In this document: positions 23,938-61,290 of the stretch, piece by piece
Numbering within the stretch: the stretch's first letter is position 1
Layout: each line of letters begins with the position of its first letter
Source: Rhodothermales bacterium
Lineage (GTDB): Bacteria > Bacteroidota > Rhodothermia > Rhodothermales > Bin80
Assembly (NCBI GenBank): GCA_958296045.1
Contig: CATQHT010000002.1
Span: 62,001 to 126,000, forward strand
DNA: 64,000 nucleotides
Reading direction: 5' to 3'
Notes under the pieces: model-generated
Told to the model about the DNA's origin: nothing
What the model saw: only the letters and a program-made list of their open reading frames with translations
The model's database searches: none
Translations under genes and position numbers: made by a program

Positions 23938-24011
23938 GTCGAGTAGCCTAGGCGAATCGAACCCCCAGGCCCTCACAGATCCAGACATGCGTGCCTCCTC
24001 GCATCCGGCTC
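23938..24011 (-). mobile_element. Group II intron 3' end (domains V and VI), remnant
   Basis: On the minus strand, 24011-23978 is exactly 34 bases starting GAGCCGGATGCG and ending GGATC, in the layout of group II domain V (GAGCCG..., catalytic AGC-type opening). It is followed by a hairpin with a 7-bp stem (GCCTGGG pairing with CCTAGGC) and the tail TACTCGAC, which has an unpaired A seven bases from an AY end, as for domain VI and the branch point. One domain V base pair is mismatched and no reverse transcriptase frame is upstream, so this is a relic. Confidence 0.5.
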
Positions 24012-24291
24012 CTGCCGGTCCGTTAGACGGTTGTTGCCAACCATATAGAGTTGCCTCACTCAGTCACTTGAGGTATTCCTCTTGCGAGTCTCCCTTAGCA
24101 ACAGGACGATAGGCTCCCACGTTTCACGCAGGAGCCTGATCCGACCTCTTGCCGCCTTTATGCCGCAGGCCGCCAGGGCAGTAAGCAGATGTCTCCCTGG
24201 CTGCTTCCGGGGCAAACGCCTAACCCCGGTTGTGACTTCGTCTAAGGATTGTTTGACTCGTCACCAGCGGTTCGCTTGCGCTCAACTTGAA
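24012..24291. other. Non-coding stretch between intron tail and groEL
   Basis: 280 bases. On the minus strand it is rich in short hairpins (for example GGCTCC pairing with GGGAGCC around 24115-24140). It is probably upstream intron RNA, but domains I-IV cannot be traced. The downstream end of the groESL transcript must also lie here; no classic terminator with a T-run was found. Confidence 0.3.
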
Positions 24292-27683: not shown

Positions 27684-28050
27684 CCTCCAGCAATTCTAAA
27701 TTTGGGGCGTTCGGTGGGGGAACGGATCTTATTTTGCGGTAGGCTACGCGCACGCGGGCTGTGAGGTAGGCGGTTGGTGGACGGAAACAGGCAATGAGAA
27801 GCTACAATTGAGGCGCCACCAATCCGCCCGAGATATACGACGGCCTTCCAGGCCTCTGGAATTCCCGGTTGTCTTGTTTATGACATACAATCTTTCAGGC
27901 TCTCGCAGCGGAAGGCGCCAGCGGAGGAGGACGACGGTACAACATGCTTTCCCAGAGACTTCGCCAGTCGGGGATTGGGTAGCTTATCGTATGTGCCCGC
28001 AACGTCTCCAAGAAATCGCGGCGCACCTGGTAGGATGCTCGGCATTGCTT

Positions 28051-28242
28051 CCACAACCCTCTTGCTTGGTCGAGCGTCGTATGCAGTCGTGGTCCAAGTC
28101 AGCCCAGTGTGCGAGGATGCCCTCGACTCCACAACCCTCTTATTTGGTCGAGCGTCGTATGCAGTCGTGGTCCAAGTCAGCCCAGTGTGCGAGGATGCCC
28201 TCGACTCCACAACCCTCTTATTTGGTCGAGCGTCGTATGCAG
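28051..28242. repeat. 78-bp tandem repeat, 2.5 copies, inside IS copy 1
   Basis: Units begin CCACAACCCTCTT at 28051, 28129 and 28207, the last being a 36-bp partial. Units 1 and 2 differ only by GC to AT in the CTTGC/TTATT part. 78 is a multiple of three, so the amplification keeps the transposase C-terminal frame. Absent from the other IS copies. Confidence 0.9.
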
Positions 28243-29409
28243 GGCAAATGCCAACAGGTTGAGGGTGGCTAACAGGTTTGCCAGCCGATTTTGCCATGCC
28301 CGAAGTTGTGTTTGAAGTTCTGTCCGTGTCGTGCGATGCAGTTGAAGCACTCGTTCTCGATCTTCCATCGAGCCCGCCCACAACGAGCAACCTCCTGTAC
28401 ATTGTACTTCGTTACCGTCAGGCTGGTGAAGAGCGTCGTGTAGAAGGTCTGCTTGTAGGTGCCCTGCTTTTGGCGTAACCGCACGGTCTTTTCCACCCAT
28501 GTGCCGTGTACGGCATCGTCCGTGTTCCGAATCGGCAGATCGGTCATCCAGCGATAGCAGTGCTCTTCGTAGCGACGTGTTTTCTTGTTCTGCACCCGGA
28601 TCCAACCGGTGCTCTGGATATAGCGCTCGTGTAAAACTTGAATAGCGTGCTATGCGACTTGGGTTTGACCACAAACAGGAAATCGGCGCCCGCATGGAGC
28701 ACCTGTTGGCAGAAGGGGTGTGTGGCATATAGGGCATCTCCCAGATATACCGGACGATAGCGAGCCATGCGAGCTCCCCACTTCGTTAACCATCGCTTAG
28801 CGGCATTGATCTCACAATCCTGCTTGCGACGCCGCACCGAGTGCTGGTCGCCAGGATCATCCTGTGTGCGGACAAACTCTGGCATCAACGGTACCACCCG
28901 GTTGTGCTCTGGAGCCACCACAACCGCCGCCACCATGGTATGGAAGAACGAGGGACGCTTGTCTTTGCCCGTGCGACGCGAGGAGCATTGCTGACATGGA
29001 TTGTCCGAGAGGAATGAAACTCGAGGCCATCAAGCGCCACGAGGATCCGATCCCTCAGACGTACAAACGGCGAAAAGTCTCCCTTGGAACGAAGCGTATC
29101 CAGCAGGTGCAGATACAGGAGCTGAAATGAATCTGGCACTAGGCGGTCCAGCAGATTGCGGATCTGCCCGTCAGAGGGAATGCCTTGCATGCCAAACAGC
29201 GTCTGGCAGTTGGAACGGCCCACGTCGTCCTGCATCCTCCGCTGAAAAGCAAGAAAGGAGGGCGATTGCAGAAAGAAGCAGGCAAATGCGCTCAACACAG
29301 CATCGGCCAGCGTATATCGCAGATTGGGCCCCTGACGGTTATCCTCAAATGTACTGGCGGCCGATCGGATGCGTTTCAGCACATCGCGCAGCAGCTTGCT
29401 TGGTTTCAT
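28177..29409 (-). pseudogene. DDE transposase of IS copy 1, frameshifted
   Basis: Coding trace of about 400 codons. The first part (29409-28990) runs MKPSKLLRDVLKRIRSAAST to the first catalytic Asp region (VALDGLEFHSSRTIH). A one-base deletion right after IH destroys the expected HCQQCSS motif and shifts the frame, which continues as MVAAVVVAPEHNRVV and LGDALYATHPFCQQV in another frame. A second shift follows KSHSTLFKF (four Ts where copy 3 has five). The last part holds the catalytic Glu region (RARWKIENECFNC). The product cannot be made without two recoding events. Family placement within the IS4 superclass is uncertain. Confidence 0.8.
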
Positions 29410-30303: not shown

Positions 30304-30726
30304 GTTTCAATCCCCTAATGAGCGGGGCAGGCGTTGCGGGGTGCTTGGATTGGAAAGAGCTCCCGTTGTCGGCACGCTAGTTTCAATCCCCTAATGAGCG
30401 GGGCAGGCGTTGCGGGTTCAGCGACAGCCAGATCTCCGAGCCGGCCTTGCGGATCGTTTCAATCCCCTAATGAGCGGGGCAGGCGTTGCGGGCTGGAGCG
30501 ATACGTCGAGGCGGCCGAGTATTTCGGCCACATGTTTCAATCCCCTAATGAGCGGGGCAGGCGTTGCGGGGGCACACGCATCCCGCCAAAGATGGGACCG
30601 ATGAGCGTGTGTTTCAATCCCCTAATGAGCGGGGCAGGCGTTGCGGGTTCAAGAAGTATTACCCATACGCAATCCTCGTCCTGTTCATTGTTTCAATCCC
30701 CTAATGAGCGGGGCAGGCGTTGCGGG
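30304..30726 (-). CRISPR. CRISPR array, six 37-bp repeats and five spacers
   Basis: Six identical 37-base repeats start at 30304, 30380, 30456, 30534, 30611 and 30690 (plus strand GTTTCAATCCCC ... GGCGTTGCGGG). Spacers are 39, 39, 41, 40 and 42 bases. Read on the minus strand the repeat ends in ATTGAAAC, the 8-base tag typical of type I-B/III-like crRNAs, so transcription is probably from high to low coordinates. This agrees with the cas2 remnant and leader lying at higher coordinates. No intact cas gene is in the window. Confidence 0.97.
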
Positions 30727-30830
30727 GGCGCCTTGTGAGCCTCGAAAGCAATCGCAACGCCATTATGAAGGCTCAATCGGCTGGTAGCAAGCACCGTGAT
30801 GGCCAATATAAGCTTTTTTCCATGTCAAAA
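30727..30830 (-). promoter_or_regulatory. Putative CRISPR leader with promoter
   Basis: Stretch upstream of the array on the minus strand. It contains TTGCTA (30790-30785) and CATAAT (30767-30762) separated by 17 bases, a fair sigma70-like pair about 35 bases before the first repeat, and an A/T-rich run at 30808-30828. The leader role follows from orientation; the promoter is a guess from matches to consensus. Confidence 0.35.
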
Positions 30831-30895
30831 CCATCTAGACGCAAGGAAATTGGGGCACTTACCTCCTATCGACATGGCGACCTCTCGACGTACGT

Positions 30896-30946
30896 GAAAT
30901 TCGTAACCCCATGGTAGTCCCAAAAAGGGCCGAGGTTACGAATTTC
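30896..30946. repeat. Imperfect palindrome site 1 (outer arms GAAATTCGTAACC / GGTTACGAATTTC)
   Basis: Two perfect 13-base arms at 30896-30908 and 30934-30946 enclose 25 bases. The enclosed part has a small CCC-AAAAA-GGG stem. The 10 inner arm bases are repeated exactly at site 2 (31223-31267). Confidence 0.85.
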
Positions 30947-31015
30947 TCGCGTACAGTGCGCTCGCGAAGCGAGAATGGCTCTATCTCCTGAGCAACAAAC
31001 GGCACCTCCCTACTC

Positions 31016-31171
31016 ATGTCGGACCATCCGACCGACAATCCGCAGCCACTTGACCACCCGATTCAGGACCACCGACCACAAGACAGCCGCCCCCGGAAAC
31101 GCCCAGATGTATGGGACCAGTTAAGGCAATACCCAATGCGCATACTCGGCGGTCACATTGGTAGACTATAA
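31016..31171 (+). CDS. Candidate 51-residue protein between two palindromes
   Basis: A short frame from ATG 31016 to TAA 31171. It begins MSDHPTDNPQPLDHPIQDH, is rich in Pro, His, Asp and Arg in the first half, and ends in a likely amphipathic helix (DVWDQLRQYPMRILGGHIGR). No clear ribosome binding site and no known family. Support is its protein-like composition and its position: it is the only fair frame between two palindromes with the same arms. A transposase scrap is an alternative. Confidence 0.3.
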   Translation: MSDHPTDNPQPLDHPIQDHRPQDSRPRKRPDVWDQLRQYPMRILGGHIGRL

Positions 31172-31222
31172 GCAAGTCGAAGAACAAACCGGCGGCTGCA
31201 GGACTGATTTCCACGGCCCGGA

Positions 31223-31267
31223 TTCGTAACCCCCCTGCATGTCAGGAACCGTTGGAGGTTACGAATG
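31223..31267. repeat. Imperfect palindrome site 2 (outer arms ATTCGTAACC / GGTTACGAAT)
   Basis: Arms at 31223-31232 and 31258-31267 enclose 25 bases, the same spacing as site 1. The core differs and has its own CCTG-CATGT-CAGG stem. It ends 5 bases from the stop of the cas2 remnant. Confidence 0.85.
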
Positions 31268-31272
31268 ACCGC

Positions 31273-31452
31273 TTAAGCGATAAAGACCTGCTCCTCGCCA
31301 ACACTGCCCGCGGTCGCACTCGCACCAACATGCTGGCGACGATCTGGACATCTGGCACATAACGTGTATACGGCCACCTGATCATCCGCCAGCTCAATGA
31401 GCGCACGGCCACGAGCCAGACACCGCTCAAAGTGGCGCCGATCAACCTTCAC
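31273..31452 (-). pseudogene. cas2: cas2 remnant, C-terminal exon
   Basis: Sixty codons from the intron boundary to TAA: VKVDRRHFERCLARGRALIE, then LADDQVAVYTLCARCPDRRQ, ending VGEEQVFIA. This fits the last two thirds of Cas2, where a beta strand and helix are followed by D-S/Q-V-R/A-V-Y-x-L-C-x-x-C and a short final strand. The N-terminal ferredoxin-fold strand with the catalytic Asp is missing; a group II intron end replaces it. It lies on the same strand as, and upstream of, the CRISPR array, where cas2 normally sits. Confidence 0.65.
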
Positions 31453-31523
31453 ATCGCGGTAGCCCCAGGGTTTCCCCTGGGGCCCCGCACACATCCGTGC
31501 GTGCGCACTAACGTACACGGCTC
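31453..31523 (-). mobile_element. Group II intron 3' end (domains V-VI) joined to cas2
   Basis: Minus strand from 31523: GAGCCGTGTACG ... CACGG, a domain V-like hairpin, then a perfect 9-bp hairpin with GAAA loop (GCCCCAGGG / CCCTGGGGC), then TACCGCGAT. The A eight bases from the AT end fits the branch point, and AT fits the AY 3' end. The next base starts an in-frame cas2 codon. The intron's upstream parts are not found before the IS at 31811, so it was truncated. Confidence 0.6.
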
Positions 31524-31810
31524 TTCCCGCAGGTCGCGCTGTTGCGCACGACGTTAGGAAGGGTTACCCCACTTCGAGCCGTAAGCGGTATGCCTATGCC
31601 GCGACTGTGGCTCTGAGTCTGCAGCCATCGAACAGATTCACAAAATCCGGCACAGCGTCGACGGTAGCCCTTTGCCATCTGATACCCTCCAATGATGAAA
31701 CCACAATACATACCAACAGCCTCTGGACCCTACGGCTCCATCGGGATGCCAACGCGCTCGCCAACCCGTTGCTCTGCCAAATCAAGTGTTGCACTTCCTT
31801 GTTAAGCGGG
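31524..31810. other. Unassigned DNA between intron tail and truncated IS
   Basis: 287 bases. It may be intron domain I-IV sequence. Minus-strand frames exist (for example ending near 31594) but show no reverse transcriptase or maturase motif. Confidence 0.35.
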
Positions 31811-32647
31811 CCTGTTTGTGGTCAAACCCAAGTCGCATCGCACGCTATTCAAGCTTTATACGAGCGCTATATCCAGAGCACCGATTGGATCCGGGTGCAG
31901 AACAAGAAGACACGTCGCTACGAAGAGCACTGCTATCGCTGGATGACCGATCTGCCGATTCGGAACACGAATGATGCCGTACACGGCACATGGGTGGAAA
32001 AGACCGTGCGTGTACGCCAAAAGCAGGGCACCTACAAGCAGACCTTCCACACGACGCTCTTCACTAGCCTGACGGTAACGATGCACAATGTACAGGAGGT
32101 TGCTCGTTGTGGGCGGGCGCGCTGGAAGATCGAGAACGAGTGCTTCAACTGCCTCGCACGACACGGACAGAACTTCAAACACAACTTCGGGCATGGCAAA
32201 AATGGGCTGGCAAACCTGTTAGCCACCCTCAACCTGTTGGCATTTGCCGTGCATACGACGCTCGACCAAGTAAAAGGGTTGTGGAAGCAATGCCAAGCAT
32301 CCTACCAGGTGCGGCGCGATTTCTTTGAGGCGTTGCGGGCACGTACGATAGGCTACCCAATCCCCGACTGACGAAGTCTCTGGGAAAGCATGTTGTACCG
32401 TCGTTCGCCTCCGCTGGCGCTTTCCGTCGCGAGAGCCTGAAAGATTGTATGCCGTAAACAGGATAACTGGGAATTCCAGAGGCCTGGAAGGTCGTCTTAT
32501 GTCTCGGGCGGATTGGTGGCGCCTCAAAGGTAGCTTCTCATTGCCTGTTTCCGTCCACCAACCGCCTACCTCACAGCCCGCGTGCGCGTAGCCTACCGCA
32601 AAACAAGATCCGTTCCCCCATCGAACGCCCCAAATTTAGAATCGCTG
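31811..32647 (+). mobile_element. Insertion sequence, island copy 2, 5'-truncated
   Basis: Similarity to copy 3 starts at CCTGTTTGTGGTC (31811) and ends at the inverted repeat AAATTTAGAATCGCTG (32632-32647). It encodes the transposase part after VVKPKSH, with the same 4-base run near 31855 as copy 1, and the final catalytic-Glu segment RARWKIENECFNC. The left half, including the left inverted repeat, is gone. It is inverted relative to copy 1. Confidence 0.85.
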
Positions 32648-32736
32648 CGTTGCCTCCGCTACTGTTGCAATATTCGCGCTGGCGGCTTAATATGGCAAGG
32701 TGTCATTGGGTCCCGATTCACCACTTCAAATTGCTG

Positions 32737-55025: not shown

Positions 55026-55770
55026 GACTCAGATGTCCAGTGAACAGAAACTACGGCACTGTGCTAAAGGTAACGATATTCGGGTAAACGTGCAAGTTAC
55101 CGGTTTCCCTGGCCTGCGCTACAGGGTGCTGGTGTAGGGGTCACGGAATCGCGACCTCTGTTGCACTATAGGACATGGCCCAGCGGGTTCGCCTGCGGTC
55201 TGCTGCGTCGTCCGAATTCGGTGGCGCTACGCGAGATCACCCAGCGTTACGAACGGCTGTTGAGCGACGATTAGAATTGCGGTTGTGTGTCACGTACAGG
55301 CATGGAGGTGAGACTATGACATAGCCTGATGACTGCGTGGGGGATGGCCCTCCGCAGCCGCCAGTCAGGTGGAGGCTGCAAACCGCCCACTGCTGCTGCG
55401 CTCAAGAGGCGTGGTGGTTAGCGAGCTGAGAGTGCGCCAGGCTAACTCTGCCCTGTACTTACTTGAGCAACTTAACAACAAGCGTTCAGGGTGCACAGGG
55501 CGGGCCCAGCTTAGCCCCCAGCCACGCGGTTATCCGACAACTACAGCATAGCCCCTCGCAGCGGGAGGCCTGAGCTACACGCTGGAGGCGAATATCACAC
55601 TGTTCTAAGTGGTAGATGCGAAAGGGCAAGACCTTTCGCGGAGCGGGCGTGGGTCAAGGGTCTATGCGCCGACCGCGACAGGTGCGTGTACCCCCCTCGC
55701 TTTGCGGGCATGCACCTTGTGCAGCGTGCGGTGAGCGAAACCGTTCAGATTGCCGAGCCTACGCCATGCG
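55026..55770. other. Long intergenic region upstream of the T9SS gene
   Basis: About 745 bases. A plus-strand frame near 55175-55275 reads GLLRRPNSVALREITQRYER and stops, perhaps the end of a lost gene. No insertion sequence end or RNA is recognised. Confidence 0.35.
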
Positions 55771-59428: not shown

Positions 59429-61142
59429 CAGCGATTCTAAATTTAGATGTATGTAGAGGTAACGGGGATACTTGTTTAGCAAGCAATATGTGTATGATGG
59501 GTGTATGGACTGGCAATACCGGTCCAGCGATGCCCTGCTATAGCGTGCTTTTATCTTTCACTCTGAGGTACGCCCATGAAACCAAGCAAGCTGCTGCGCG
59601 ATGTGCTGAAACGCATCCGATCGGCCGCCGGTACATTTGAAGATAACCGTCAGGGACCCAATCTGCGCTACACGCTGGCCGATGCCGTGTTGAGCGCATT
59701 TGCCTGCTTCTTTCTGCAATCGCCCTCCTTTCTTGCTTTTCAGCGGAGGATGCAGGACGACGTGGGCCGTTCCAACTGCCAGACGCTGTTTGGCATGCAA
59801 GGCATCCCCTCTGACGGGCAGATCCGCAACCTGCTGGACCGCCTAGTGCCAGATTCACTTCAGCTCCTGTTTCTGCACCTGCTGGATACGCTTCGTTCCA
59901 AGGGAGACTTTTCGCCGTTTGTACGTCTGAGGGATCGCATCCTCGTGGCGCTTGATGGCATCGAGTTTCATTCCTCTCGGACAATCCATGTCAGCAATGC
60001 TCCTCGCGTCGCACGGGCAAAGACAAGCGTCCCTCATTCTTCCATACCATGGTGGCGGCGGTTGTGGTGGCTCCAGAGCACAACCGGGTGGTATCGTTGA
60101 TGCCAGAGTTTGTCCGCACACAGGATGATCCTGGCGACCGGCACTCGGTGCGGCGTCGCAAGCAGGATTGCGAGATCAATGCCGCTAAGCGGTGGTTAAA
60201 GAAGTGAGGAGCTCGTATGGCTCGCTATCGTCCGGTATATCTGGGAGATGCCCTATATGCCACACACCCTTTCTGCCAACAGGTGCTCCATGCGGGCGCC
60301 GATTTCCTGTTTGTGGTCAAACCCAAGTCGCATCGCACGTTATTCAAGTTTTTACACGAGCGCTATATCCAGAGCACCGGTTGGATCCGGGTGCAGAACA
60401 AGAAGACATGTCGCTACGAAGAGCACTGCTATCGCTGGATGACCGATTTGCCGATTCGGAACACGGACGATGCCGTACACGGCACATGGGTGGAAAAGAC
60501 CGTGCGCGTACGCCAAAAGCAGGGCACCTACAAGCAGACCTTCTACACGACGCTTTTCACCAGCCTGACGGTAACGAAGCACAATGTGCAGGAGGTTGCT
60601 CGTTGTGGGCGGGCGCGCTGGAAGATCGAGAACGAGTGCTTCAACTGCATCGCACGACACGGACAGAACTTCAAACACAATTTCGGGCATGGCAAAAATG
60701 GGCTGGCAAACCTGTTAGCCACCCTCAACCTGTTGGCATTTGCCGTGCATACGACGCTCGACCAAGTAAAAGGGTTGTGGAAGCAATGCCGAGCATCCTA
60801 CCAGGTGCGCCGCGATTTCTTTAAGGCGTTGCCAGCATGTACGATACGCTACCCAATTCCAACTGGCGAAGGCTCTGGGAAAGCATGTTGTTCTGTCGTC
60901 CTCCTCCGCTGGCGCCTTCCGCTGCGAGAGCCTGAAAGATTGTATATCGTAAACAGGATAACTGGGCATTCCAGAGGCCTGGAAGGCCGTCGTATGTCTC
61001 GGGCGGATTGGTGGCGCCTCAAATGTAGCTTCTCATTGCCTGTTTCCGTCCACCAACCGCCTAACTCACAGCCCGCGTGCGCGTAGCCTACCGCAAAACA
61101 AGATCCGTTCCCCCACCGAACGCCCCAAATTTAGAATCGCTG
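59429..61142 (+). mobile_element. Insertion sequence, copy 3 (full length)
   Basis: 1714 bp between CAGCGATTCTAAATTT (59429-59444) and AAATTTAGAATCGCTG (61127-61142), a perfect 16-bp inverted repeat. Same element as copies 1 and 2. It carries about 60 bases of unspent sequence after the transposase and sits next to the IS4 relic. Confidence 0.92.
59576..61086 (+). pseudogene. DDE transposase of IS copy 3, frameshifted and with a stop
   Basis: Starts MKPSKLLRDVLKRIRSAAGT. The first frame keeps VALDGIEFHSSRTIH, then a one-base deletion (CATGTCAG for CATTGTCAG) shifts it, exactly as in copy 1. The trace continues MVAAVVVAPEHNRVVSLMPE to RWLKK, where TGG has become TGA at 60205-60207, then MARYRPVYLGDALYATHP in frame through KSHRTLFKFLHERY to RARWKIENECFNC and the end. 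Here the run of five Ts restores the frame that copies 1 and 2 lose. Not functional as it stands. Confidence 0.8.
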
Positions 61143-61290
61143 CCTATTTCTCCGCGGGGTTGCATTTGGAGAACTCTTATGTTACGTTGTGTCAGTTCCT
61201 CTATCTGAGTTGGAGATTTACCATGAGAAAGTTTTACACTGGAGTAGGGTTGGTCGTCGCGGCCCTACTAATCATAAGAGGACAACGGCA

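Follow-up and report, generated by a model that had tools for sequence, protein, structure and literature searches.

A group II intron and a gene of CRISPR adaptation appear side by side in a 64,000-nucleotide stretch of a Rhodothermales genome (hereafter the window, C2:62001-126000), which raises the question of whether the intron was once inserted in cas2 and what is left of both. By a MutY search the genome falls near Rhodothermales. A sequence-only reading had proposed that cas2 was split by the intron and that only the intron 3' end and the second exon remain. Positions 31270-31830 of the window were used as a query against the own genome (4.78 Mb), and three separate sets of matches were obtained, corresponding to cas2, to the intron and to an insertion sequence.

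The intron remnant and its junction with cas2

The intron part of the query (172-381, positions 31659-31450) is present in about 27 other places of the genome with 82-87% identity (E down to 7e-67). Full-length copies of this family are 706 nt long, carry no ORF and start with GTGCGCC at the 5' end. Their common sequence ends in CCGCGAT (or a one-base variant) and diverges beyond it, hence 31453 is the last intron base. The cas2 part (query 376-561) has two genomic matches, with 95% (E 2e-80) and 94% (E 3e-76) DNA identity, at C3:1722290-1722475 and C3:2100914-2101099, both within intact cas2 genes. The end of the intron family and the start of the cas2 homology, which are two independent homologies, meet at 31453/31452. 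The locus holds a truncated group II intron with its 3' structure, joined exactly at its 3' end, and in frame, to the homologue of the second exon of cas2 (Table 1).

The remnant was located correctly by the sequence-only reading, but it is longer than had been stated and comprises the whole of 31453-31659. Domain I (D1) and the 5' splice site GUGYG are absent from this copy; it stops at 31659 and is therefore a fragment and not a complete group II intron. The EBS sequences are gone along with D1. Moreover, the window copy is about 86% identical to the family, and the other copies are mostly 94-99% identical to each other.

Table 1. Features of the cas2-intron locus (positions in the window)
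Feature	Positions	Strand	Basis
CRISPR array, six repeats, CRISPR-DR10-like	30304..30726	-	RF01323 matches below gathering score; spacers
Leader between cas2 and array	30727..31272	-	Homologous to intact loci L058 and L059
cas2 second exon, codons 37-95 + TAA, phase 0, open frame	31273..31452	-	DNA and protein homology
Group II intron 3' remnant (part upstream of domain V, domain V, domain VI)	31453..31659	-	207 nt of the 706-nt ORF-less intron
Domain VI: bulged branch-point A 31460, 3' splice site after 31453	31453..31489	-	Fold, covarying pairs
Domain V: AGC triad, AC bulge, 32 nt	31492..31523	-	Alignment, pair counts; weak RF00029 match
IS30-like element, first 153 nt (left end 31812), fused to the intron remnant	31660..31812	-	Genomic copies
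ISAs1-like element, truncated by the left end of the IS30-like element	31811..32650	+	93-96% matches to other copies

Domains V and VI

Read on the minus strand from 31523 to 31273, the sequence passes through domain V (D5), domain VI (D6) and CTACCGCGAT, and then enters the open frame VKVDRRHFERC...QVFIA with its stop codon. D6 consists of a 10-bp stem (one G.U pair) closed by a GAAA loop, with a 4-bp basal stem beneath. The hairpin and its loop had been recognized before, but with a stem of 9 bp. The branch-point position proposed then agrees with the fold, since the bulged A at 31460 is separated from the splice site by 7 nt (CCGCGAT), within the 7-8 nt that define domain VI of group II introns. 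The D5/D6 fold has a z of -5.1.

The alignment of D5 and D6 covers 18 distinct copies, drawn from this genome and from its relatives. In the named structure 97% of the cells are paired, versus 26-48% when the partner is slid, and seven pairs are altered on both sides. The D5 helix is 96% paired with three doubly changed pairs, and the D6 helix is 97.6% paired. The D5 of the window copy has two base-pair mismatches, G1.G32 and A10.C21, as expected from decay; G1.G32 is present in one sister copy too.

The covariance-model search suggested with the original claim gave a sub-threshold but well-placed result: with a 301-base query, RF00029 (group II D5/D6) matched 31453-31525 weakly (24 bits, gathering 40, E 0.0087), over the full model length and with its 3' end exactly at 31453. 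Sister copies reach up to 40 bits with this model. An Rfam scan of 6 kb, with E up to 1, did not detect the intron. A Moco-riboswitch match obtained with the 301-base query was discarded as chance (20.7 bits versus a gathering score of 36, overlapping the intron).

The second exon of cas2

The second exon comprises 59 codons and TAA with no internal stop, and its protein is 87% identical to residues 36-95 of intact Cas2. This identity, together with that of the DNA to the two cas2 genes, bears out the proposal that the in-frame tail is the C-terminal part of Cas2. The profile search proposed as a check had a mixed outcome. The fragment alone (61 and 81 residues) had no matches among Pfam and NCBIfam profiles, but the full form of the intact paralogue matched PF09827 (4e-19) and TIGR01573 (3e-15) and passed both cut-offs. 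The intact cas2 genes, at C3:1722185 and C3:2100920, score 68.8 and 65.7 bits with PF09827. No matches were found for the 61-residue fragment among PDB sequences, or for the intact Cas2 query in GTDB. The 81-aa ORF is spurious, since its frame extends across the end of the intron.

In the intact allele, ...GTGCAGGAGAGCGTATTTGAA is followed directly by GTGAAGATTGATCGG, and the intron position lies between the two; hence the intron sits after codon 36 in phase 0, between ESVFE and VKVD. Exon 1, which is missing from the window locus, encodes the N-terminal strand and its conserved Asp (in the paralogue, MPRYVFCYDIAN), so that what remains is a cas2 fragment and not a Cas2 gene. The exon has one synonymous and five nonsynonymous private changes, which would fit loss of constraint, although they are too few for a test.

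Uninterrupted cas2 was also looked for outside this locus, and it was found both in the own genome, twice, and in relatives. Eight relatives of the same family have an uninterrupted Cas2 that matches over residues 1-94 or 1-95 with 49-62% identity, and full-length uninterrupted examples occur in G002, G006, G010, G013 and G015. The intron-cas2 junction is absent from all relatives searched.

The leader, the array and the intact type III-B loci

Downstream of the exon, the homology continues. The segment 31455-30303 was aligned to loci L058 and L059 with about 83% identity, unrelated spacers included, and the homology goes from exon 2 through the leader to the array, whose repeats are common to both of these intact type III-B loci. 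L058 encodes Cmr2, Cmr3, Cmr4, Cmr6, a CARF protein, Cas1 and Cas2. Only exon 2, the leader and the array are retained at the window locus, without cmr genes or cas1.

No intron-targeting spacers were found in the three arrays compared, where the longest shared word is 11 nt. One spacer of the L058 array has 18 bases in common with a spacer of the L059 array (L059 7975-7997), suggesting that the same invader may have been sampled by both arrays. In L059 (C3:2101.4-2104.3 kb), the second type III-B locus, an insertion sequence interrupts cas1; an intron was ruled out there, as the insert has a short target duplication and transposase-like ORFs.

The 5' side of the remnant

On the other side of the remnant, query positions 19-171 (31812-31660) match several genomic places with about 92-96% identity. 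These copies have a left boundary common to all of them and a common continuation beyond the window fragment, which we read as the start of an IS30-type transposase; the element is therefore taken to be IS30-like. The neighbouring element, presumably ISAs1-like according to a reading of its transposase, recurs at 60306-61143 and 27688-28679.

The window locus has thus lost exon 1, the cas genes upstream of it and the 5' part of the intron (the first ~500 nt). The IS30-like fragment lies directly 5' of the remnant and is followed by the ISAs1-like one. The earlier description of the locus as an intron 3' end plus a second exon is accurate. Exon 1 had been described as lost to the truncated insertion sequence at 31811; the loss is real, but the remnant adjoins the IS30-like fragment and not the truncated element directly.

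The target site

A target-site matrix was built from 13 sites of the main intron subfamily. All 13 have G at -4, and 12 of them have G at -1. In the cas2 site, position -4 is T and position -1 is A (G in the other allele). Depending on the allele, this site is among the best 0.1-1.3% of positions, and higher scores occur elsewhere around cas2; the matrix gave weak support to an insertion here. Since the site is unlike the main subfamily at -4, the window copy may have had a different EBS1, in the part that was lost.

Introns across the genome

The whole genome has 58 RF00029 matches and 31 matches to the maturase domain PF08388. Its maturases are of three kinds, with open frames of 453, 462 and 504 aa. 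Most copies of the 706-nt family are full length or nested, and several have a second group II intron inserted at about position 388. In one place (L034/L045, C3:1394.9-1398.2 kb) two 706-nt introns lie in tandem, the second beginning exactly at the 3' end of the first. The first also contains a nested intron, and all of them lie within an IS605 OrfB-like gene. Elsewhere in the window, group II introns have left a D1-D4 match at 55339-55456 (+) and a D5/D6 match at 23938-24013 (-).

When the flanks of 19 family members were joined, long sense ORFs were restored at about ten sites. They encode transposases, an M1 peptidase, a PD40 protein and an Ig-like protein (the Ig-like protein and some transposases were named by reading). 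The cas2 insertion fits this family pattern of sense insertion within ORFs. The intron insertions in the M1 peptidase gene (L038, C1:892.8 kb) and in the PD40 beta-propeller gene (L053, C3:2694.4 kb) are in sense and in phase, and both genes are candidates for naturally spliced bacterial genes.

Antisense copies were observed too. One is a full-length copy in cmr2/cas10 (L175 11212-11917, C3:2067.2 kb), near the N-terminus between TDWEH and LLVYLHDPID; joining its flanks restores the frame, and its orientation allows no splicing from the cmr2 mRNA. Thus, cas genes are touched by two of about 28 family copies, which is not enough to claim a preference. Another lies in a long ORF (L033, C3:1770.4 kb) that we take, by reading, to encode an aspartate kinase/diaminopimelate decarboxylase fusion. 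Should the genome have no other copy of this ORF, the corresponding step of lysine synthesis is expected to be missing.

Proposed history of the locus

Our explanation, to which we give a probability of roughly 0.93, is that the window locus is a decayed type III-B module in which the intron was inserted in cas2 after codon 36 and the 5' side was deleted afterwards. The starting point would have been a type III-B (Cmr) CRISPR module with cas1, cas2 and an array. The ORF-less 706-nt intron, probably full length at that time and mobilised in trans by the reverse transcriptases of other introns, would have entered cas2 in sense and in phase 0, within the ESVFEVK strand. In this orientation splicing could in principle have left an intact cas2 mRNA. 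Later, the arrival of an ISAs1-like copy carrying the IS30-like element, followed by a deletion, may have removed exon 1 together with the intron's first ~500 nt and the cas genes further upstream. As the 5' junction is missing, the insertion is proven at the 3' side only, and exon 1 presumably once stood upstream of this intron copy. Splicing is impossible at the window locus today because D1 and the 5' splice site are missing. No Cas2 is made from it; it is a dead fragment. The surviving leader and array could still be served in trans by an intact Cas1-Cas2-Cmr locus with matching repeats.

Other histories were considered. Incomplete target-primed reverse transcription is known to yield copies truncated at the 5' end, and the 3' 207 nt are all that remains here, so the intron could have arrived already truncated by an early stop of reverse transcription, killing cas2 at once and never being spliceable. 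This is unlikely: full-length or nested copies make up most of the family in this genome, and the upstream neighbour of the remnant is the interior of an IS30-like element instead of cas2 exon 1, a loss that a later deletion explains better. It is still less probable that recombination or deletion brought a stray intron up against a piece of cas2 into which it had never inserted. The region is indeed a patchwork of broken mobile elements, but the join falls exactly at the 3' splice site and at a codon boundary, in sense orientation, and a random breakpoint would rarely hit the last base of an intron. An ordinary terminator hairpin next to a chance likeness to cas2, for which the fragment's lack of a profile match might speak, is hardly credible given the 94-95% DNA identity to intact cas2. 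Moreover, the hairpin recurs at the 3' end of the whole intron family with covarying pairs and is a real D6.

Relation to known systems and significance

In Thermosynechococcus elongatus tens of related introns have been described, including ORF-less members, introns within introns and trans-acting members that bear a reverse transcriptase; a small number lie within genes, and the text mentions neither CRISPR nor cas2 (PMC2882425). The present genome is alike in having been invaded by tens of introns with ORF-less and nested members, trans action being presumed here, and differs in that many copies are in sense within ORFs and two touch cas genes. In reverse transcriptase-Cas1 fusions (PMC5513706), a reverse transcriptase protein has become a functional component of adaptation. 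Both cases bring an element related to group II introns together with a CRISPR adaptation module, but here, unlike in those fusions, the RNA of an ORF-less intron interrupts the gene and nothing is recruited. Sequential splicing is reported for a group II twintron in Trichodesmium (PMC4649490). Nesting of bacterial group II introns is seen in both organisms, but the window copy in cas2, unlike that twintron, is truncated and cannot splice. By title and abstract, the open-access literature on group II introns in cas genes yielded papers on reverse transcriptase-Cas1 but no intron in cas2, which is weak evidence of novelty because the search covered open-access work only.

This is a known kind of element at a new and unusual site, and the locus is a relic. 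The uninterrupted cas2 alleles of the same genome allow the 3' insertion point to be known to the base. As a rule, group II introns are excluded from bacterial genes; in this case one was inserted, in sense, within a gene for defence. It is conceivable, though rather doubtful, that the ORF-less introns of this lineage were carried as spliced passengers by working genes, including cas2, and that cas2 once depended on a self-splicing intron and a maturase acting in trans. With its dozens of small introns, several of which lie in sense within protein-coding genes, this genome offers a natural setting in which to ask whether bacteria tolerate spliced genes.
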